The notes beneath the pieces are model-generated. The model searched no databases, was not told the DNA's origin, and saw nothing but the letters and a program-made list of their open reading frames with translations. This document shows, piece by piece, positions 30,131 through 41,845 of a DNA stretch of 64,000 bases. This stretch comes from a bacterium. Its GTDB lineage: Bacteria; Bacteroidota; Bacteroidia; B-17B0; Aurantibacillaceae. Where the stretch lies: contig JAQSCW010000010.1 in the NCBI GenBank assembly GCA_029945625.1, positions 62,001 to 126,000 on the forward strand, in the 5' to 3' direction. Both the position numbers and the translations under genes were made by a program. Each line of letters opens with the position of its first letter. Position 1 is the first letter of the stretch.

Positions 30131-30889
30131 TTACAGCAGATTCAACTTCTGCATCAATTCCTCTCTGTAAGATCCACCAACAGGGATCACCTTTTTTTCA
30201 TGTTCCAGTACCACGTTTTGGTTATCAATGCTCTGGATCTTGTCAAGCCTAGCAATAAATGAGCGATGCACCCTGGCAAACTCTACGTTTCCAAGTTTTT
30301 TGTCAAGATCCTTCATGGTACTGTGTACTGTAAAACGTGCGTTCTCGGTATTAATGATCACGTAGTCTTTTAGTGCTTCCACAAAATAAATGTCCTTAAG
30401 ATAAACCTTTACTAACTTACTGTTTGATTTAACAAACAAAATGTCATTCGTCTTTTCGTCCTTGTTTTCAACTAACGAATACAAGAAGTCTCTCTCTTTA
30501 AGTAGAGCCGAATCCTTTTGGTGCTTGTAAACGGCCATCTCGATAGTTGAGTGTAGGTCTATTTCCTTGAACGGCTTCAGAATATATCCATAGGGCTCGG
30601 TTATTTTGGCTCTCGAAAGGGTTCCCTCGTCAGCGTATGCCGTTAGAAATATTACGGGAACATTCATTTTTTCTTTGATCTTCTCGCTCACGTCTATTCC
30701 TGTTAGTCCGCCTTTTATCATGATGTCCATCAATACAAGATCGGGGGCCAGTTCAATAATTTTCTCAATAGCGTCTTTCCCATTATTGGCAAAACCAACA
30801 ACATTGTATCCCAATTTTGTGAGGCTGTTTTGAATATCTTTAGCAACAATGCTTTCGTCCTCCACAATAAAAATGTTCAGTTTCTCCAT
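30131..30889 (-). CDS. LytTR-type DNA-binding response regulator
   Basis: A 252-residue two-domain regulator. The receiver domain (about 1-120) has the acidic pocket (FIVEDES), the phosphoacceptor Asp in LVLMDIMIKG (about 55), and conserved Thr/Ala and Lys (FLTAYADEG, YILKPFKEID). A short coiled linker leads to the LytTR domain (about 150-250), with DIYFVEALKDYVIINT and FARVHRSFIA. It starts 8 nt after the stop of the large sensor kinase, which is its likely partner. Its targets are unknown. Confidence 0.9.
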   Translation of the reverse strand: MEKLNIFIVEDESIVAKDIQNSLTKLGYNVVGFANNGKDAIEKIIELAPDLVLMDIMIKGGLTGIDVSEKIKEKMNVPVIFLTAYADEGTLSRAKITEPYGYILKPFKEIDLHSTIEMAVYKHQKDSALLKERDFLYSLVENKDEKTNDILFVKSNSKLVKVYLKDIYFVEALKDYVIINTENARFTVHSTMKDLDKKLGNVEFARVHRSFIARLDKIQSIDNQNVVLEHEKKVIPVGGSYREELMQKLNLL

Positions 30890-30897
30890 ATTTCAAA

Positions 30898-33800
30898 TTA
30901 CATTTTAAACTTAACCGTCACCTCGGTGCCTTTGTCTTTCTCCGATGTGTATTTTAACTCCCCTTCTATTTGTTCAATTAGGGTGTTCACTAGTTGCAGC
31001 CCCAACGTGTGACTGTTTTCAAAATCTAAACCGGGAGCAAAGCCCACCCCGTCATCTTTTAACTCTAAAATTACAAAATTATTCTCGCTTCGTAAACTAA
31101 AACTAATAATCCCCTTTTTGGCTCCCGGAAAGGCGTGCTTTATTGCATTTGTGATCAATTCGTTAATGATCAATCCGGCCGGTATCGAACTATCAAGTGA
31201 TAAGGTCAAGTCCTGAATGTTCAGTTCAAGCCCTATCTTGTCGCTTGAATAGGAATACGATTGAACAATATTTTTCACGAGGGTATGAACATACTCTGAA
31301 AAATTAACGGATGTAAACGATTTATTTTGATATAAACTCTCATGAATATACGCCATTGTCTTGATCCTATTCTGAGTCTCTTTCAAAAGTGTTAAAGCAT
31401 AATCATCCGAAACATAAGAAGACTGAAGGTTCAAAATGCTGCTAATCACCTGCATGTTGTTCTTTACGCGGTGATGTACTTCGCGCAACAATACTTCTTT
31501 TTCTTTTAAAGACTGCTCCATTCTTTGCTGCACATATTTTTTTTCGGTTACATTATGAGCAATACCACTAACTTCCACAACTTTATCATTTTCAAAAATA
31601 GGGTTCAAGAAAATTTCCAGATACACCTTCATGTTGTCTTTGTCGCGGGTTTCAATCTCAAAACTGGTTGCCAAACCAACAAATGCTTTATCATAATGAA
31701 ACTGCAGGAGTTCACTATATTCTTTATCGTTAGCAAGAACCCCCCGGTTTAAAACAAGCCCCAAAAAAGGTTTTGTGTTGTATAGGGCCGTAACCAAATC
31801 GTAATAATTCTTGTTGAAGGACGTGAGTTTGCCGTCTCCATCAATGGTCCAAATATAGTGGTGACTGCTATCAAAAATAGCGCTTAACTTCCCCGTTTGA
31901 TTCAACAGCTTCTGTTCATAAATTTTTGAATCTGTAATGTCGTTTGCGATGCAGCTAATTTCTTTTACCTCTCGCCGTTCATTGTAAATAGGATTAATGA
32001 AAATTTTTCTAAATACGCTTCCGTTATAAAAATCTTCCTTAACAAATTCCAGCTTCTTTCCGGCAAACGCTTCTCTGTATTTTGTGTACCACAAATTTAC
32101 ATAATCCTCTCTGCCACTTAATAATAATTCATCAATCTTGTCGCCCGGTTTAATGCTCACTTTGTGTTGGAGCATGACCACATTGTGAAAATTTTGATTG
32201 TAAGAAGTGATCTCATACTTTTCGTTTACTGTCCAAATGAGATGAGTAGAATTTTCAAGAATCGAAGAAAGATGGGCGGTCTTTTCCGTTAAGCTTTTTT
32301 CCGCTTCTTGTCTTTCCTTAATTTCCTTCTGCAGCTGCTTGTTGGCTGTTTCAGTAATCAGCGTTTTGATCTTTTCCTTTTCGCGTTGCCGCCGATCGTT
32401 TAGATTATTTACTAGTGATAATATGCAATCTTTGTTGTTATACTTGAGGGGTACCGATTTTATTTCTACCTCTAAAGCAATTCCTTCGGCGTCTTTGATG
32501 CTATAATTATTATACTTGTTCTTTGATCGCTTGTTTTCATAAATAGAGTGAATTCGCTCTGCGGCTTTCTTTCTTTCGGATCCGTCAAACAAATCCAAAA
32601 CAAACTTGCCCAGCATCTGATTTTTGCTCTTGAGCCTTAATAATGTTCCCATGGCATTGTTTAAAAAAACGCAAACACCGTGGTCGTGTATCATGTATGC
32701 AACCGGAGAGTTATCAAGTAAGTTCCTGTAGTTGTTGTTTTGATTTTCTACCTCCAGCTCACTCTCCTTCTGCTCCGTTATGTCTCTCAAAATGTTGATG
32801 AAGAAAGATATTTTTCCTTTGTCATTTGTAATTGGAACAAGACTGTTTTCAAGCCATACTTCTTCTTTTTTGCTATTTAGTATTTTAAAGGAATAATGAA
32901 GGTTTTTTATACTATTCCTCTTTTGGTGTTCCCGGATCATCTGTTCAAATTTCACAAATTCTTCATTCTTTCCCGACAGTTTTTTTGAAAGAAAAGAGTT
33001 GTCATTTAAGAGGTCTTCCGGATTATATCCCAATATCCTTTTTATGTTTGGACTAACGTATAAATATTTGCCTTTAGGATAGTAGGTGTCAAAGGCAATA
33101 ATATCATTTGCGTTATTTGTAATCAGATCAAATTTATTTTTAGTTTCAATCAATAATTCTTCCGTCAAAATACGCTCCGTAACATCATGAATAATCCCCA
33201 CAAGCCCTGTGGTATTGGTGATTTTGCTGGACTCAGAGATTAAGGTAATTTCAAAATGTTTATTTTCTCCATTTGCTCTTCTAAGATGGGTCAAAAATTT
33301 TTGTTCTTCTGTTCTTTTCCCTTTTAGCCCCGGTTTTGATGCCTCTAACAGAGGTTCACAAAATGGCTTGATAATTGAAAAGAGAATGTTTGGCTTGTTG
33401 TACACTTCTTCCGGGTAGTGCCCCAAAATCTTCTTTGAAGCAGCTGAAATAAATCTTAATTGCATTCCTTTTTCTACAGTAATATAGAAAATAAGGTCCC
33501 TGCTGTTAGTGCTTACTTTATCAAGCAATAGCTCACTGTTTAAGTTTTCTTGCCGTTTTTCATCTTGCTCCAGCTTCTTGTTTAGTGTGCATTGAAATGC
33601 GCCGGTGCTCTTAAAAATTAAACGATTGTATAACAACTGGAACAAAACCACTTTTTTTCCTGGAATTCTTAAATTCAAAATAAAATCATCTGTTTCGTTT
33701 TCTTCAATATTCTTACTTGATTTCTTCTTTTGGTTTACCGAAATCGAGGGCTTTTTAAAAAACTGTGCCAAGAGCTGCTTTTCGAATTGCGACTTGTTTA

Positions 33801-33936
33801 TTTTAGAGAGTTGTAATACGCGTTTGAATTTGCTATTAATAAATAGGACGTTTTCTGTGTTAAACACAATTACTGGAACCGGCAACTGATCAAGTGTCTT
33901 TTCATCTATTTTATTATTCTTTTTAACCAATTTCAT
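30898..33936 (-). CDS. Multi-PAS sensor histidine kinase (HisKA_2 type)
   Basis: A 1012-residue soluble sensor kinase with no convincing membrane segment. I count six PAS-like units beginning near residues 15, 145, 265, 395, 550 and 685, several with the NILRDIT or IAHNVTE ending typical of PAS-PAC linkers. The dimerisation domain has EVLLREVHHRVKNNMQVISS near 810-830, the HisKA_2 form whose phosphoacceptor is a His in HHRVKNN. The HATPase domain (about 890-1012) has IINELITNAIKHA and DDGVGF. It sits between a MORN-repeat gene (17 nt upstream) and its LytTR regulator. The ligand or signal is unknown. Confidence 0.9.
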   Translation of the reverse strand: MKLVKKNNKIDEKTLDQLPVPVIVFNTENVLFINSKFKRVLQLSKINKSQFEKQLLAQFFKKPSISVNQKKKSSKNIEENETDDFILNLRIPGKKVVLFQLLYNRLIFKSTGAFQCTLNKKLEQDEKRQENLNSELLLDKVSTNSRDLIFYITVEKGMQLRFISAASKKILGHYPEEVYNKPNILFSIIKPFCEPLLEASKPGLKGKRTEEQKFLTHLRRANGENKHFEITLISESSKITNTTGLVGIIHDVTERILTEELLIETKNKFDLITNNANDIIAFDTYYPKGKYLYVSPNIKRILGYNPEDLLNDNSFLSKKLSGKNEEFVKFEQMIREHQKRNSIKNLHYSFKILNSKKEEVWLENSLVPITNDKGKISFFINILRDITEQKESELEVENQNNNYRNLLDNSPVAYMIHDHGVCVFLNNAMGTLLRLKSKNQMLGKFVLDLFDGSERKKAAERIHSIYENKRSKNKYNNYSIKDAEGIALEVEIKSVPLKYNNKDCILSLVNNLNDRRQREKEKIKTLITETANKQLQKEIKERQEAEKSLTEKTAHLSSILENSTHLIWTVNEKYEITSYNQNFHNVVMLQHKVSIKPGDKIDELLLSGREDYVNLWYTKYREAFAGKKLEFVKEDFYNGSVFRKIFINPIYNERREVKEISCIANDITDSKIYEQKLLNQTGKLSAIFDSSHHYIWTIDGDGKLTSFNKNYYDLVTALYNTKPFLGLVLNRGVLANDKEYSELLQFHYDKAFVGLATSFEIETRDKDNMKVYLEIFLNPIFENDKVVEVSGIAHNVTEKKYVQQRMEQSLKEKEVLLREVHHRVKNNMQVISSILNLQSSYVSDDYALTLLKETQNRIKTMAYIHESLYQNKSFTSVNFSEYVHTLVKNIVQSYSYSSDKIGLELNIQDLTLSLDSSIPAGLIINELITNAIKHAFPGAKKGIISFSLRSENNFVILELKDDGVGFAPGLDFENSHTLGLQLVNTLIEQIEGELKYTSEKDKGTEVTVKFKM

Positions 33937-33953
33937 AGCGCTACATTGATTTT

Positions 33954-35621
33954 CTATCTCCTTATCACTTGTGTTTTATTTTCATCTATTTTGATACTAT
34001 AAGAACGCAAACCCTCTTCATACGTAGGTCTTATTTTCTCCCCTTGCCATTTTATTTCAATATCGTTCTTATACGTGATCGTTAGGTAATTAACATCTGA
34101 TTCATCGTAGTATTTCCAGTCACCATCTTTCATGCCATTTACATAGTCGCCCACATATTTTTTTGCCCCATTTGGATGGTAAGCCAGATGAGTGCCTTCC
34201 GGTACTCCCGACTGGAATCTACCTTCAAAGCACTTTATTTTATTAGGCATATAATAACTTTTCCACAAACTATCCGGCTCGTCGTTCACGTAGTTGCCGT
34301 ATTCTACATAATCTTTTGTTTCATAGATCCATCTTCCTTCTTTTTTATTATCTATATAATTTCCCTGTAAAAGTATATTTCCTTCTTCGTCATAATCTGT
34401 TAATAAGCCCTGTCTTCCTCCATTGTAATAATTTTCTTCTCTCCATATTTTACCATTTTCATAATACCAGTTCCATACGCCTTGTTCTCTACCCTTCTGA
34501 TCGTATTTTCCTTTTTGCTCAATGCTACCTGAAGCATAGTAAAATTCCCAATTACCAACTCTCTTATCTTTCTTATACATTCCTTTACCTTTGAATTCGC
34601 CGGTATTATGAAATTCATTCCATATTCCTATTCTATTTCTTACACTATCAACCGCTCCTTTTGCCACCACAACTCCATCAAAATATTCAATAGCACTATC
34701 GGGTATAGGCACATTTCTACACACCAATCTACGTACAAAAACATCTGTTGTATCATCTCTTCTAAACAAACTACTATCACACCTTCTTTTTTGGATGTAT
34801 TTATAATGTGTACCAATAGCCAACCCATCACTGTACACTCCTTCATATTTTAGAGTTCCGTCCTCAAAAACCTCTCGGTACACTTCCACATTTGCAATTT
34901 CGGGAGCGTTGTAAATCCTTCTTCCATTATTATATTTCTTTGTGCTCAGTAGATTACCGGTTCGGTCATATTCCTTCGTATAGCCATCTAAAGAATCATC
35001 ATTAAACTGCTGAATTTTTTTTACCTCCTTATTATCATAAAATTCCTTCCATAGGCCTTGTTTTCTGTATAGTCCGTCTTTTTGATTTATTTTTTCATAA
35101 CTCTGCATAATTCCTCCTTTAAACAGTGTGATTGCAGTAACTACTGAATCGGTGCTGAATTCATACATAGTTCCTTCCTGTCGGCCTTTTTTAAATGGTA
35201 CAATGCTTTTTGTTTGTCCCGACTTATAAAAGGACCTTGAATACCCTTCTTTCTCATCATTAACATAATCGTCGCTATTTGTTATTTTACCAAGCGTATC
35301 ATAAACCGTTGTACTGCCGTTCTTTTTTCCTATTGAGTAATTTATTGATTTTGTTATTCTGCCTTTTTCATCATAAAATTTCCATAAGCTGTCTAGAATA
35401 AAATTTTTTCTATTTCCTTCAATTTTTATCTTCCCATTCTTATAATAATTTTTCCAATACCCTTCCGGCTTTCCATCTTTCATATTACCTTCGCTACTCA
35501 ATTTACCGTTTTCGTAGTAAAATTTGTTTAAGCCATTTGGATTAGTAGTTTGGGAGGTTAAATAGAAACTATTTAAAGTAATAAAAATAGTAGATAGGAA
35601 TAAGAGGAAACTGTGTTTCAT
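33954..35621 (-). CDS. Secreted YwqK/MORN-repeat protein
   Basis: A 555-residue exported protein. Using the ATG at 35621 gives a clean signal peptide (MKHSFLLFLSTIFI...). The rest is a chain of short beta-hairpin repeats of the MORN/YwqK type, such as YYENGKLSSEGNMKDGKPEG, WKNYYKNGKIKIEGN and WEFYYASGSIEQKGKY, with roughly 15-18 units. The YwqK name refers to a Bacillus antitoxin, but in Bacteroidota such repeats are common and their role is unknown. No toxin gene is adjacent. It heads the kinase-regulator operon and may present or sense an envelope cue; that is inference. It is more AT-rich than its neighbours. Confidence 0.75.
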   Translation of the reverse strand: MKHSFLLFLSTIFITLNSFYLTSQTTNPNGLNKFYYENGKLSSEGNMKDGKPEGYWKNYYKNGKIKIEGNRKNFILDSLWKFYDEKGRITKSINYSIGKKNGSTTVYDTLGKITNSDDYVNDEKEGYSRSFYKSGQTKSIVPFKKGRQEGTMYEFSTDSVVTAITLFKGGIMQSYEKINQKDGLYRKQGLWKEFYDNKEVKKIQQFNDDSLDGYTKEYDRTGNLLSTKKYNNGRRIYNAPEIANVEVYREVFEDGTLKYEGVYSDGLAIGTHYKYIQKRRCDSSLFRRDDTTDVFVRRLVCRNVPIPDSAIEYFDGVVVAKGAVDSVRNRIGIWNEFHNTGEFKGKGMYKKDKRVGNWEFYYASGSIEQKGKYDQKGREQGVWNWYYENGKIWREENYYNGGRQGLLTDYDEEGNILLQGNYIDNKKEGRWIYETKDYVEYGNYVNDEPDSLWKSYYMPNKIKCFEGRFQSGVPEGTHLAYHPNGAKKYVGDYVNGMKDGDWKYYDESDVNYLTITYKNDIEIKWQGEKIRPTYEEGLRSYSIKIDENKTQVIRR

Positions 35622-36199
35622 TGGTGCGAACATAAATGTAATTTAAATTCCAACATAAATCAATGTTCAGAATAGCAGCAATTTTTTAAAGCTTATATAA
35701 TACATATACTTTCTTTTTTTTAAAATTTAAAAATTACTATATGTATTATAAGGTGTTAGTTCTGTTAATTAATAAGGCTGATAAATTTGGTTATAATGGT
35801 TATTAGAGTTAGTGAACGTGTACTAAACAAAGTTAGTGATTTAAGAGCTTGATAATGAGGAGTGTTTATACCTATTAACAATCGTTAGTAGTTATTAGTA
35901 CTGATAACTTTTGGGAAGCACACTCTGTTAACAGTGGAGTTTATCGTTTGAAAAGTGATGGTGGTTTTTTGGAATAGTAGTTGGAAAGACAGGATAATTA
36001 TATAAGGCGGAATTGAAATGAACGCGAGGGGATTTAATTTTGGCTAGTTATACAGGTTTAATAATTCTACTAACAGGCCTTCTGTTGATTACTTGATACC
36101 TATAGAGGTTCATTATCAGTTAGTTATTTTATTAGTGTTAATTGCTGTTGATTAGTATTTTTAAGGAATAATTGTAATAGTTAGAAAGGACGGTATTTT
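35622..36199. other. AT-rich non-coding interval, candidate origin-associated region
   Basis: No credible gene. The stretch is strongly AT-rich and densely packed with similar 9-mers: TGTTAATTA (35763), TGTTAATTG (36136), TGTTGATTA (36083 and 36146), the inverse CTATTAACA (35872), plus CTGATAAC (35901) and many GTTAGT steps (35754, 35808, 35832, 35884, 36119). The TGTTRATTA words are two or more bases from a DnaA box (TGTGGATAA), so the identity is uncertain. Genes on its left run leftward and genes on its right run rightward. An origin is one reading; a long leader for rpiB is another. Confidence 0.35.
35696..35750. repeat. Perfect 13-bp inverted repeat
   Basis: TATAATACATATA (35696-35708) is repeated as its exact reverse complement at 35738-35750. 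The 29 nt between are a T-run followed by A/T-rich sequence. It could be an operator, a cruciform or an unwinding site; the stem is too AT-rich for a convincing terminator. Confidence 0.55.
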
Positions 36200-36634
36200 A
36201 TGAGTATAAAGGTGTGTATTGGTTCTGACCACGCAGGATTTGTTCTGAAGAAAGAGCTGATCGATTGGATGAAATCAAATAGTATTAATGTAGATGATAG
36301 AGGGTGCTTTTCAGATGATAGGGCCGATTATCCTGATTATGCACATTTGGTTGCGTTGGATGTTGTTAATAAGAAGTGCGAGTTTGGTGTCTTGATTTGT
36401 GGTAGCGGTAATGGTATTGCCATGTCGGCCAATAAGCACAAGGGCATTAGGGCCGCACTTTGTTGGAATGAGGAAATTGCAATACTGGCGCGTCAACATA
36501 ATGATGCTAATATTCTTGTATTACCCGCAAGATATATCAACACAGAGGAAGCCCACAAGTGCGTGAATCGTTTTATAAGCGAAAAGTTTGAGGGTGGTCG
36601 ACACGAGGCACGCGTGAAGAAGATAGATGTATAA
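36200..36634 (+). CDS. rpiB: Ribose-5-phosphate isomerase B
   Basis: A 144-residue RpiB/LacAB-family isomerase interconverting ribose 5-phosphate and ribulose 5-phosphate. The family start IGSDHAGFVLKKEL (residues 7-20) supplies the catalytic-site Asp and His. YPDYAHLVA, GVLICGSGNGIAMSANK and RAALCWNEEIA follow. The general base in many RpiB proteins is a Cys, and the CGSGNG loop here has it. The length is typical. TATTTTTA at 36156-36163 is a near-consensus -7 box. The next gene starts 15 nt downstream. Confidence 0.92.
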   Translation: MSIKVCIGSDHAGFVLKKELIDWMKSNSINVDDRGCFSDDRADYPDYAHLVALDVVNKKCEFGVLICGSGNGIAMSANKHKGIRAALCWNEEIAILARQHNDANILVLPARYINTEEAHKCVNRFISEKFEGGRHEARVKKIDV

Positions 36635-37183: not shown

Positions 37184-37390
37184 GGCACGGTATTTACCCC
37201 TGGCAGGGATCTTAGCAGCCGCTTGGAGGCTTTAGAGTCGGCACGTTTTTTCGTTAGATCATTTAGTGTTAGGGCGTATTCTTAATTGTCGCTTACAGCA
37301 ATGAGCCGGAAATAGAAGACTAAGTATTAATTACAATGGACGCGCTAGTGTTTATGAATTTTGCCCTTTTCAAAGGAAGTCGCCTATCTT

Positions 37391-37552
37391 TCAAGTGAAA
37401 AAGCACCAAACACAGGTGCTAAAAAGGCCGCGTAAAAGTTGAGTTTTTAAACCGTGGTTTCTCCCTTCATTACGCTGTTTTGCTGAATTATAAACTAACT
37501 TAATAAGTTCATGAATGGTTATTTTCAGTTTGCCTTTATCGGTGTGAGCCAT
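37391..37552 (-). CDS. Possible small basic protein, unknown
   Basis: A 53-codon frame opening with [10 protein letters not shown], then an amphipathic helix-like [20 protein letters not shown] and a Cys/aromatic-rich C-terminus. TGTCTTTG, one base from the -7 consensus, lies about 7 nt upstream of the ATG, an arrangement shared with dprA and murB. The 3' end coincides with a hairpin suited to leftward termination. I do not recognise a family, and the evidence is circumstantial. Confidence 0.25.
37398..37420 (-). terminator. Weak leftward terminator-like hairpin
   Basis: AGCACC (37402-37407) and GGTGCT (37415-37420) form a 6-bp stem with a 7-nt loop. On the minus strand it is followed by four U. 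No U-run follows on the plus strand. Confidence 0.35.
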
Positions 37553-37598
37553 TTTGCAGCAAAGACAATCAGCCAAGGGTGTACGAAGAATTAATACT

Positions 37599-37606
37599 TA
37601 TCTTTG
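37599..37606 (+). promoter_or_regulatory. -7 promoter element of mnmG, fixes the start codon
   Basis: TATCTTTG matches TAnnTTTG exactly, 14 nt before the GTG at 37620. An open frame extends upstream to 37554, but the promoter lies inside it, so the GTG is the likely start and the leader is very short. Confidence 0.55.
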
Positions 37607-37619
37607 CAAAAAAAATTTA

Positions 37620-39506
37620 GTGCAGGAATCTTACGACATAATTGTAGTTGGTGCTGGTCACGCTGGTTGTGAAGCCGCCGCCGCAGCCGCCAATCTTGGT
37701 TCAAGAGTTCTGTTGATTACAATGAACATGCAAACCATCGCCCAAATGAGTTGCAATCCGGCAATGGGCGGTATTGCTAAAGGACAAATTGTTCGGGAAA
37801 TTGATGCCATGGGGGGCTATAGCGGAATTATTTCTGATAGGAGTTCGATCCAATTCAGGATGCTGAACCGAAGCAAGGGCCCCGCCATGTGGAGCCCTCG
37901 CAGTCAGAATGATAGAATGCTGTTTGCAGGATTGTGGCGGGAAATGCTGGAACAAACACCAAATGTGGATTTTTGGCAAGACATGGTGCGACAGTTACTA
38001 ATATCATCTGACGGCAAACGAGTGGAAGGTGTTGTAACCGGCATGGGGAAGGAATTTCGATCCAAGGCAGTGGTCCTAACAAATGGTACATTTTTAAATG
38101 GAATAATACACATTGGTGAAAAGCAATTAGGTGGAGGAAGGACAGGAGAGTCGGCAAGTTACGGAATAACGGAACAATTAGTCCAAATAGGATTTGAGAG
38201 TGGGAGGATGAAAACGGGAACCCCGCCGAGGATTGACGGAAGGTCTCTTGATTATTCTAAGATGGAAGTACAAGGGGGAGATGAGCTGGTAGACAAGTTT
38301 TCATATCTGGCAGGGACCTCTCCGTTTTTGGGGAAAGAAGCCAAAAAGCAGATTCCTTGTCATGTAACTTATACAAATCAAAAGGTCCACGACATTTTAA
38401 AAACAGGTTTTGAAAAGTCTCCGATGTTTCAGGGTCGGATTCAGGGCTTGGGGCCACGGTATTGTCCTAGTATTGAGGATAAGATCACGCGGTTTAGCGA
38501 GCGCGAACGCCATCAATTATTTGTTGAGCCCGAGGGATGGAATACAGTGGAGATTTATTTGAATGGTTTCTCTTCCTCCTTACCGGAAGACGTGCAATTG
38601 AAGGCCCTACGATTAATTCCGGGTTTGGAAAAAGCAAAAATGTTTCGACCCGGCTACGCGATTGAATACGACTATTTCCCTCCTACGCAGTTACGACTTA
38701 CCCTTGAAACCCAATTGGTGGAGAACCTCTATTTTGCAGGCCAAATAAACGGAACTACCGGATACGAAGAGGCGGCAAGTCAAGGTTTAATGGCAGGGAT
38801 AAATGCACACCAAAAAATCAGCGAAAAAAAGGCGATCGTGCTTAATCGTTATGAAGCCTATATAGGTGTGCTTATCGACGACCTTGTGACCAAGGGAACC
38901 GATGAGCCCTATCGCATGTTTACCAGCAGGGCCGAGTATCGTTTGCTCTTGCGTCAGGACAATGCAGACGTTAGGCTTACCCCAATATCGCATGCTATTG
39001 GATTGGCCAGCAAGGAACGATTTGACACCGTAAATACTAAAATTAAAAATTACAACTCTATAATTTCTCATTTTAAGAATACCAGCGCAGAACCCGAAAG
39101 AGTAAACCCCTTCTTGGAGTCCATTCAGTCATCGGTTCTAACACAAAAAACGAGATACATTAACGTATTAGTGAGGCCTAATTTGGGAATTTCAAATCTT
39201 GAAATGGCAGATGAGGAGCTAAGCCGGAAACTGCAGGGATTTGACAATGAAACCAAAGAACAGGCTGAGATATTAATGAAGTATGAAGGCTATATTGACA
39301 GGGAGAGAGAAAATGCAGAGAAGCTCAAACGACTAGAGGATTATAAAATTGATGCCGCCTTTAATTTTGAAAGTATCAATGGTTTAGGCGCAGAAGCAAA
39401 AGAAAAATTGAAAAAATTTAAACCCGCCACTATTGGCCAGGCTAGCAGAATCTCCGGCATAAATCCCGCCGACGTGTCGGTTCTGCTAATTCATTTGGGC
39501 CGTTAA
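37620..39506 (+). CDS. mnmG: tRNA uridine-5-carboxymethylaminomethyl modification enzyme
   Basis: A 628-residue FAD protein (GidA) that acts with MnmE to modify the wobble uridine of certain tRNAs. The GTG start gives [20 protein letters not shown], with the dinucleotide-binding GxGxxG at residues 10-15. Signatures [40 protein letters not shown] and [10 protein letters not shown] are intact, and the C-terminal helical MnmE-binding region is complete. Family length is normal. A parS site begins at the base after the stop codon. mnmG is often found near replication origins in bacteria. Confidence 0.95.
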
Positions 39507-39522
39507 TGTTTCACGTGGAACC
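39507..39522. other. parS site 1 (ParB-binding), one mismatch
   Basis: TGTTTCACGTGGAACC begins directly after the mnmG stop codon. It matches the conserved 16-bp parS palindrome (TGTTTCACGTGGAACA) except for the final base. Confidence 0.85.
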
Positions 39523-39530
39523 AAATTATT

Positions 39531-40409
39531 ATGTATAACTACACCAATTGTCCCGTTTGCAAAAGCCAAACGTTTAGCGACTTTCTTAATTGCGAGGACT
39601 ACACCGTCAGCCATGAAAAATTCAACATTGTGAGTTGTGATGCCTGTGGTTTCAAATTCACTAACCCTCTCCCAGATATAGAAAAATTAGGATCCTATTA
39701 TAAATCCGAAGAATATATTTCACATTCTGACACTACGAAGGGATTAATTTCAAAACTGTATCATCTGGTTCGAAAGAGGACAATAAAAGCTAAACTTGAA
39801 ATTGTCTCTTCCCATGTTTCACGTGGAACACTATTGGATTATGGCTGCGGAACAGGGGCCTTTTTGGACGCCGCTCGTCAAAGTGGTTGGAAAACCTTTG
39901 GTTTAGAACCAGATTCCGGGGCGCGGAAAATGGCCTTTGAATCAGGACTTAACGTGTCGGGTGATAAGGAAGTACTACAGCAAAAGACCAGAGACCATAA
40001 ATTTAACGCTATTACCCTGTGGCATGTTTTGGAGCACGTTACCGATTTAGAGGAGACTCTTAGCTTCTTTAAGAATAAACTTAATAGGGAAGGGGCGCTT
40101 ATTGTGGCTGTACCTAATCACAAAAGTTTTGATGCGCTGCATTATGGTAATAATTGGGCAGCTTATGATGTGCCTCGGCACCTCTATCATTTCGATAAAG
40201 ACAGTCTTGAAAAGCTAATGTCAACAGCGGGTTTCAGATTGGTTAAAATGTATCCCATGAAATACGACAGCTTTTATGTGAGCATGCTCAGCGAGAAGCA
40301 TAAGAACGGATCCATTAACTATTTAAAGGCCTTTTTTATTGGCCTTCGATCAAATATGAAGGCAAAGCAGGCATCAGAGTATTCCAGCGTGATATACGTG
40401 TTCCAATAG
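39531..40409 (+). CDS. Class I SAM-dependent methyltransferase with N-terminal zinc ribbon
   Basis: A 292-residue protein. The first 40 residues hold two Cys pairs, CPVC and CDAC, forming a zinc-ribbon-like module. A linker leads to the methyltransferase domain, with motif I LLDYGCGTGAFLDAA (about 101-115), the acidic FGLEPD and the WHVLEHV segment typical of the Methyltransf_23 group. Such zinc-ribbon methyltransferases often modify sugars or lipids; the substrate here is unknown. A perfect parS palindrome is embedded in the coding sequence, encoding HVSRGT just before motif I. It follows mnmG by 24 nt. Confidence 0.82.
   Translation: MYNYTNCPVCKSQTFSDFLNCEDYTVSHEKFNIVSCDACGFKFTNPLPDIEKLGSYYKSEEYISHSDTTKGLISKLYHLVRKRTIKAKLEIVSSHVSRGTLLDYGCGTGAFLDAARQSGWKTFGLEPDSGARKMAFESGLNVSGDKEVLQQKTRDHKFNAITLWHVLEHVTDLEETLSFFKNKLNREGALIVAVPNHKSFDALHYGNNWAAYDVPRHLYHFDKDSLEKLMSTAGFRLVKMYPMKYDSFYVSMLSEKHKNGSINYLKAFFIGLRSNMKAKQASEYSSVIYVFQ
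39815..39830. other. parS site 2 (ParB-binding), perfect, inside a coding sequence
   Basis: TGTTTCACGTGGAACA is an exact parS 16-mer and the exact reverse complement of site 4. It lies within the methyltransferase gene, where it is read as part of the codons for H-V-S-R-G-T. Confidence 0.93.
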
Positions 40410-40468
40410 ATCCTGAGGGTGGCTGAAGGGCCCCTTCCTACCTAACAACCTTACCTCCCGGTGTTTCA

Positions 40469-40484
40469 TGTTCCACGTGCAACA
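40469..40484. other. parS site 3 (ParB-binding), one mismatch
   Basis: TGTTCCACGTGCAACA differs from the parS 16-mer TGTTCCACGTGAAACA at one position. It lies in the non-coding interval downstream of the methyltransferase. Confidence 0.8.
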
Positions 40485-41230
40485 CGTATTCTTCTTTTCA
40501 GCGACCTTATTCCCACCTTCTAGACGAATCCAGCAAGTAGCAACCTGCTGCAATTCTATGGGCATGCTGCCACTAATTCAGCCTCTAATTTTGCTCAGTG
40601 CTTTTGGAGCCCTATTCCAATGTGGGTAATACTTGTTCAAGTTAGCCAGATTGATTAACCGGACCAGTAGCCAACAACTATTATTTTGTTAGAATTGTTA
40701 GTAGTTAAAGAATAGAAATGCTTTATATCAGGGCATCAGGAGATAAATCTATTTATCTACTAAACACAATTATCGTCCATTGTGATTTGAACACCAACTT
40801 GTAATAATGCACGGCAAGCACCTCTTCGAGAGCAAAACCTCGGCTCAAAAGTCGGTTCGATTCCTGGCCATCTTGAGGCACTAAACTGGAAATATAGCAC
40901 AACCAGAAATGGGGTTCCGCGTTTGGCACTGCATAATCTACTTGGCGGAATACAAATAAAGTGCTCTTCTGTAAGTTTCCCTAACAAGTTAGGAGCCCTC
41001 CGCGCAATTGTGCGATCGTCTGTTTCACAAAATTTTTTAGTCGCCGCACCGTGATGGCCGCACCTAAAATGTTAGCGTTTGCATACATTTAAAAGCTCCG
41101 GAATAGGGCTCTAATCCCTTTTTGTAAACATCAAACAGTAATAGAATAGGTCAAGCGTATAATAGCGGCTGAGGATTCAATGCGGAAGTCCGGATGCATC
41201 TAAAGATGGAAGCAAATTAAAGGAACTTGT

Positions 41231-41246
41231 TGTTCCACGTGAAACA
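41231..41246. other. parS site 4 (ParB-binding), perfect
   Basis: TGTTCCACGTGAAACA is identical to the classic Bacillus subtilis parS sequence and lies in the same gene-free interval. Confidence 0.93.
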
Positions 41247-41845
41247 TTCCATAGGGCTCCTTCGTCCTTGAAAGTGGGCATTTTCGGTGCAAGATGTTTC
41301 GTCTCCCTAAAAATAAAACGCAGATCGTGACAAGAGATGCCGAGCCGAACAAATCAAAATAATACAAAACAGCGAATCTCTGTTCCTTTGAACGCTGTGT
41401 TTTAATTTAGGAATTTCATTCTCTTGTTCATTAAACCTATCGACGTTCAGTTAATCGTAGTTTTAGTACCTATGAAAAGCTGCATCAGCTGCTCTCAATG
41501 GAATCCAATAGTAGAAGAACAATATTGACAAAGATAGAATCTCCCCGGTAAATCGACGGAACCAAATAGGATTGAAAACCGGACAGAAATAACGAAACAG
41601 GTTTGGTAATAGGAGGCAAAGCGTTGGTTTGGTAGGGCGAAATGATCTCAAGGTATTTCTACTACCGCAAGTGTATTTCACAACAATTTCACCAATGCAT
41701 CGGCCTCTGAGTGAATTCGCGTTCCGAATCTCGTCATCTGCAGTCTGCCTCTTTCCGACAATGATAAAAAATTGAAACAGGATTATCTTGCGTATTTTGG
41801 AAAACAGCTCTGGCCGTTAGTTCGGCATTGTTGGCCGATGGGGAA

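Follow-up and report, generated by a model that had tools for sequence, protein, structure and literature searches.

A probable chromosomal replication origin between a MORN-repeat gene and rpiB in a Bacteroidota bacterium, with putative variant DnaA boxes

The intergenic interval at positions 35634-36199 is very probably the chromosomal replication origin (oriC) of this Bacteroidota bacterium. Positions are those of the window, the whole 64-kb stretch of DNA that was analysed. The initial annotation had proposed a candidate oriC here, and the proposal is strengthened by a skew minimum 127 bp away, conservation across the genus, an enrichment of box-like words, low predicted duplex stability and a neighbourhood with parS-like sites. 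The gap is 566 bp long and, as had been noted, AT-rich (27.9% GC, against 41.1% for the window) and enclosed by divergent genes. The interval and its main flanking genes are:

35634-36199, unstranded: probable oriC, intergenic replication-origin element (skew minimum, genus conservation, unstable DNA, parS-like cluster nearby)
33954-35633, minus strand: MORN-repeat protein gene, left neighbour (Pfam PF07661), 5' end at 35633
36200-36634, plus strand: rpiB (ribose-5-phosphate isomerase B), right neighbour (Pfam PF02502, E 3.3e-55)
37554-39506, plus strand: mnmG/gidA (Pfam PF01134)

Next on the right of rpiB come a gene that matches ATP10 weakly (below the Pfam cut-off), mnmG/gidA, whose likely start by inspection is a GTG at about 37620, a methyltransferase gene and the parS-like sites. 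Genes for a PAS/HisKA_2 histidine kinase and a LytTR response regulator lie at 30131-33936, left of the MORN-repeat neighbour. A 1.4-kb gap at 40410-41845 holds no listed open reading frame of at least 90 aa and contains parS-like sites 3 and 4. Rfam at gathering thresholds gave no matches in the 64-kb window.

The interval lies at the minimum of the cumulative GC skew of its own contig. Sampled skew in two relatives and a control with open reading frames of one direction agree with this. Over 266 kb of its own contig, the minimum fell at window position 35507. Skew was -0.041 to the left and +0.027 to the right; in 4-kb blocks, 20 of 24 were negative on the left and 26 of 41 positive on the right, so the right-side skew of this contig is weak. 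Third-position skew rose across the site from -0.027 to +0.140 in minus-strand reading frames and from -0.116 to -0.015 in plus-strand ones (mechanically called, 150 aa or more), and gene direction alone therefore does not explain the step. In the one-contig relative G001 (40 sampled stretches), the best origin was at 960 kb and rpiB at 957 kb (contrast reached by 0 of 5000 permutations). In G030 (20 stretches; the main contig of two, treated as a circle), the best origin was at 2.36-2.42 Mb with a score of 0.037, and rpiB at 2.33 Mb scored 0.036, with a permutation fraction of 0.0034. The skew check suggested with the initial annotation thus came out in agreement on the contig itself and in the sampled skew of both relatives.

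The dnaA sites of G001 and G030 scored 0.012 and 0.015 in the sampled skew. A location for dnaA had also been sought as a check: the gene was found, and it is not at the candidate origin. It lies on a separate contig (C55) in this genome, and 0.96 Mb (G001) and about 1.1 Mb (G030) from the rpiB locus, so in these three genomes we do not see the classic arrangement of oriC beside dnaA. One paper (PMC4755523) describes an oriC far from dnaA as common in Bacteroidetes. Neither TTATNCACA nor TTATYAACA nor TAATYAACA was present in the 700 bp before dnaA. One CGTTGATTA, the form of a conserved origin word in relatives, was seen by eye shortly before dnaA (L001).

Predicted nearest-neighbour energies point to the same place. 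The 100 bp of lowest stability in the 64-kb window start at 35677 (-101.8 kcal/mol), and the next least stable (-108.0 kcal/mol, at 36088) are also inside the interval; the window mean is -130.7. On a 500-bp scale, the least stable segment starts at 35331 and lies partly inside the left gene. By predicted duplex energy there is a candidate AT-rich unwinding element next to the box-like words:

35677-35776, unstranded: candidate DNA unwinding element, with an AT-rich imperfect inverted repeat at 35696-35750 (lowest stability, conserved block)

We considered whether the origin might instead lie in another gap nearby, either just before mnmG, at 37184-37620, or at 40410-41845, the 1.4-kb gap with parS-like sites. 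Both gaps are long, and gidA/mnmG is reported to flank oriC in E. coli and Yersinia (PMC10225481). However, the skew minimum (35507) and the start of the least stable 100 bp (35677) lie outside both gaps. In the window's own sequence, neither gap contains an exact TGTTRATTA, and a search of 37184-37630 gave no direct repeats. We regard such a location as extremely improbable.

The initial annotation had placed a parS cluster 3.3 kb from the interval, and the sites are where it said:

39507-39522, unstranded: parS-like site 1
39815-39830, unstranded: parS-like site 2, inside the methyltransferase gene
40469-40484, unstranded: parS-like site 3
41231-41246, unstranded: parS-like site 4

These four sites, at 39507-41231, have 1-2 mismatches and lie 3.3-5.0 kb from the interval; another four matches, with 3 mismatches, are dispersed across the window. 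For the genus we searched with the pattern GTTYCACGTGVAAC, and for the class with the narrower GTTYCACGTGAAAC. Grouped matches to GTTYCACGTGVAAC were present near rpiB in all seven genus genomes searched. The distance is 3-7 kb in six of them, of which G018 has a single site, and 13-14 kb in G015. In the stretches fetched for 20 genus relatives, parS-like sites were present in 9 and absent in 11. In a first sample of the class, GTTYCACGTGAAAC was found in 18 of 23 genomes, on the contig of rpiB in 12 of these 18 and within 30 kb of it in 10. In a second sample it was found in 15 of 18 genomes; 7 of these 15 have it no more than 30 kb from rpiB, and all 7 carry Ala at position 435 of DnaA (Ala435, see below). 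By sequence matches, the interval has a putative parS cluster nearby, as in a ParABS origin region.

The box-like words of the interval are:

35754-35762, plus strand: box-like word TGTTAGTTC, first of a 9-bp-spaced tandem pair
35763-35771, plus strand: putative variant DnaA box TGTTAATTA, reverse complement TAATTAACA, position kept in relatives
35872-35880, minus strand: box-like word, inverted TGTTAATAG, within the conserved central block
36067-36075, minus strand: box-like word TGTTAGTAG
36083-36091, plus strand: putative variant DnaA box TGTTGATTA
36136-36144, plus strand: putative variant DnaA box TGTTAATTG, first of a 10-bp-spaced tandem pair
36146-36154, plus strand: putative variant DnaA box TGTTGATTA, second of the 10-bp-spaced pair

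Five of these had been listed before as repeated words. Exact TGTTRATTA stands at 35763, 36083 and 36146; the word at 36136 differs from it in a single base, and at 35872 the inverted word is a near match only. The three exact words compare with a mean of 0.07 in dinucleotide shuffles of the interval and were reached by none of 2000. GTTAGT, whose runs had likewise been reported, occurs six times on both strands (five on the plus strand), against a mean of 0.70 and again reached by none of 2000 shuffles. Over the whole window TGTTRATTA occurs 6 times against 2.0, reached by 2 of 100 shuffles. The pair TGTTRATTR-N(0-30)-TGTTRATTR has two places in the genome, one of them within the interval. 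At the other (G000:C26:48598-48639), the words enclose an inverted AGGAGG...CCTCCT stretch. By eye there was no clear TAG-like run of a DnaA-trio beside a box, though GTTAGT is enriched. Motif discovery by simple EM on the origins, which drifted towards poly-A/T words, was abandoned.

The interval is not a classic oriC with E. coli-type boxes: neither TTATNCACA nor TTWTNCACA occurs in it. The initial annotation had held that a cluster of strict DnaA boxes at another locus would speak against the proposal. There is none in the 64-kb window, where TTWTNCACA has 4 unclustered sites against 8.5 expected, and over the genome TTATNCACA has 177 places, about as many as its reversed control (168). Among these, positions were listed for the first part, so a strict-box cluster may exist elsewhere in the genome. 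The same annotation had called the words degenerate DnaA boxes at best. That no strict box is present stands, but the words fit a lineage-specific type, and this part of the reading may be revised.

About 470 bp of the element can be aligned between the window and 18 relatives. The genus alignment was made without L047, L053 and L032-L035 (L032, of the same length as the contig of L052, 92530, is apparently that contig). Its right part is a conserved block with 29 invariant columns among 89, on which we based a sequence-only model, R1:

36078-36166, plus strand: conserved right block, basis of model R1, with one match in the window's own genome (36081-36164)

With 110 candidates scored per genome, R1 matched 29 of 40 genus genomes, and in 26 of these the match lay no more than about 100 bp from the 5' end of rpiB. 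Two genus genomes had a second, weaker match, and 11 of the 40, several of them incomplete, had none. L047 lacks such words in front of rpiB, and mnmG is not close by. The neighbours of the element change. On the left, nadA is present in 15 of 20 relatives and is not within 3.2 kb in the window. On the right, in G034, a TPR gene (L053:1525-2985) stands between the element and rpiB and starts about 50 bp after the last box, leaving the element 1.5 kb from rpiB and without its TATTTTTG end. With nadA or a MORN gene on the left and the TPR gene in G034, the element does not depend on any one neighbour.

This variation bears on whether the interval could merely be a divergent promoter or operator for rpiB and the left operon, with TGTTRATTA bound by a transcription factor. 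It does sit between divergent genes, and the right block of the relatives runs into TATTTTTG, which we take to resemble the -7 element of Bacteroidota (TAnnTTTG). However, the element stays where the left neighbour varies and where rpiB is 1.5 kb away, and a promoter would leave both the skew minimum and the parS-like cluster unexplained. We therefore consider a promoter without an origin very unlikely.

Taking the interval as the probable origin, we compared its words with strict boxes across genomes. We call words with A at box position 6, such as TTATCAACA and TAATCAACA, A6 words, and those with C there, such as TTATCCACA, C6 words. In 21 genus upstream regions, TAATYAACA, the reverse complement of TGTTRATTA, occurred 41 times against 2.2 expected, and TTATNCACA twice against 1.2. 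In 13 AT-rich regions outside the genus, TTATYAACA occurred 13 times against 0.8, and TTATNCACA was also raised (5 against 0.7). Related regions are not independent, so these counts overstate significance. In 19 class genomes drawn later, the 500 bp before rpiB held 21 TTATYAACA, 9 TAATYAACA and 2 TTATNCACA, with 2 and 1 in the reversed controls. Position 6 of the pattern T[TA]AT[CT]nACA was A in 46 words and T in 3 in 20 genus relatives. We made the same count before rpiB in 41 genomes outside the genus, which overlap the earlier sets. Fifteen with a GC content of at least 33% in the 400 bp before rpiB were left out; among the 26 with an AT-rich gap, 23 are Ala435, one (G057) is Ser435, and G063 and G068 went uncounted (DnaA partial or unmatched). 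The 23 Ala435 genomes, three of which have no such word, gave 58 words with A 46, C 4, G 4 and T 4 at position 6; the reversed-pattern control gave A 6, G 5, T 1 and C 0. The cluster of words in the interval is real and common to the genus, and its members, putatively DnaA boxes, look like a lineage-specific box rather than random degenerate ones.

We wondered whether these words correspond to features of the DnaA protein itself. Aligned to E. coli DnaA, the protein of this genome keeps R399, D433, H434, T436 and H439 and has Ala423 and Ala435. In E. coli, P423 and T435 are named among the specific-contact residues (PMC7561715), and T435M is reported as defective in box binding (PMC5742627). 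Ala435 was present in 24 of 30 DnaA sequences of a first set, this one included, and in 22 of 29 of a second (G063 partial); the rest have Ser or Thr. Residue 423 tracks 435 loosely: four Ala435 genomes have Ser423, and the Ser435 genome G050 has Ala423. Besides the real dnaA, locus L167 (G001:C1:1330379-1330663, minus strand) holds a 118-aa frame like DnaA domain IV, 28% identical, and similar weak matches occur in G103 and G115.

To pair residue with box type, we took the densest 600 bp of matched A6 or C6 words around parS-like sites or rpiB in 16 genomes. The set omits G081 and G117 (Ala435, with parS-like sites) and G037, G046, G053, G116, G140 and G144 (Ser/Thr435, no parS match). Six of nine Ala435 genomes had only A6 words, two or more, in five cases just upstream of rpiB; the other three had no two words together. 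Among seven Ser/Thr435 genomes, four had only C6 words, one (G050) was mixed, one (G115) had two A6 words and one lacked two words; G050 and G115 are both Ser435. Three C6 words were present only in G078, with two each in G052, G057 and G094. One of the two in G057 is inside rpiB, and in the other genomes C6 words were counted regardless of gene borders. The evidence for C6 boxes in Ser/Thr435 genomes is thin.

We see even chances that, in much of the class Bacteroidia, the DnaA-oriC code has been rewritten: Ala435, usually with Ala423, would go with a change from C to A at box position 6, giving TTATYAACA/TAATYAACA, and Ser/Thr435 lineages would keep C6. The two DnaA types look like clades, so the co-change may amount to one or a few evolutionary events. 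The A6 pattern could also reflect low origin GC and shared ancestry rather than a changed specificity, with the usual DnaA tolerating A6. Origins have a high AT content, and the Ala435 genomes are relatives of one another; C6 is also enriched outside the genus (the 5 against 0.7 in 13 regions); G056, an Ala435 genome, has three TTWTNCACA near rpiB; and the Ser435 genomes G050 and G115 carry A6 words. In Cyanothece 51142, moreover, the linear chromosome has a predicted box TTATCAACA, the same A6 word as here, and fragments with its imperfect boxes are reported to have bound DnaA domain IV (PMC4674748), so a changed DnaA may not be needed for A6. Against it, the 19 newly drawn class genomes have 30 A6 words and 2 TTATNCACA, and in the 23 Ala435 genomes A prevails over C, G and T at position 6 beyond the reversed control. 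We find this account quite possible, somewhat short of an even chance.

Comparison with known systems places both readings. In Prevotella intermedia OMA14, as here, the origin is at the skew switch and away from dnaA, with multiple DnaA boxes called by Ori-Finder; unlike here, E. coli boxes with one mismatch were used, and the origin description names no changed box or DnaA helix (PMC4755523). Boxes that depart from TTATCCACA by lineage are also reported elsewhere, as TTTTCCACA in Cyanobacteria (PMC10225481, PMC6323995) and AAACCTACCACC in Thermotoga maritima (PMC10225481). Unlike in those lineages, the departure here is C to A at position 6, often with T to A at position 2, and Ala at the position of E. 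coli T435. In Cyanothece, TTATCAACA is one imperfect box beside TTATCCATA, a pair reported to be bound less well than TTTTCCACA, whereas here A6 words prevail (PMC4674748). The DnaA of this genome shares the helix-turn-helix frame of E. coli domain IV (PMC5742627, PMC7561715; PDB 1J1V chain) and differs in having Ala for both P423 and T435, with TTATYAACA/TAATYAACA as the origin words. Lineage-specific DnaA boxes as such are thus already known. A co-change of DnaA and box, of which a limited search of the open-licence PMC literature gave no description among the matches listed, is a lead that could go either way.

From oriC biology in general, we would expect DnaA to bind the TGTTRATTA-like words, both the tandem pair at each end of the element and those in between, to form a filament and to melt the AT-rich 35677-35776. 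Helicase would then be loaded, forks would depart both ways, and ParB on the parS-like cluster 3-5 kb off would separate the copied origins. Less certain is a further layer, in which the DnaA of this lineage would read box position 6 as A instead of C. We propose that this reading follows from the replacement of the base-contacting Thr435, usually also of Pro423, by Ala. Such a changed reading is a likely reason that the boxes looked degenerate.

DnaA boxes are commonly searched with the E. coli consensus, and since dnaA often lies at a distance, origins of Bacteroidota are difficult to call. If the co-change is true, the ancestral place of oriC in Ala435 lineages would be next to rpiB and parS. 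A lineage-specific box linked to one or two contact residues would permit reliable origin calls and origin plasmids, and would give a clean test of joint change in an essential initiator and its sites.
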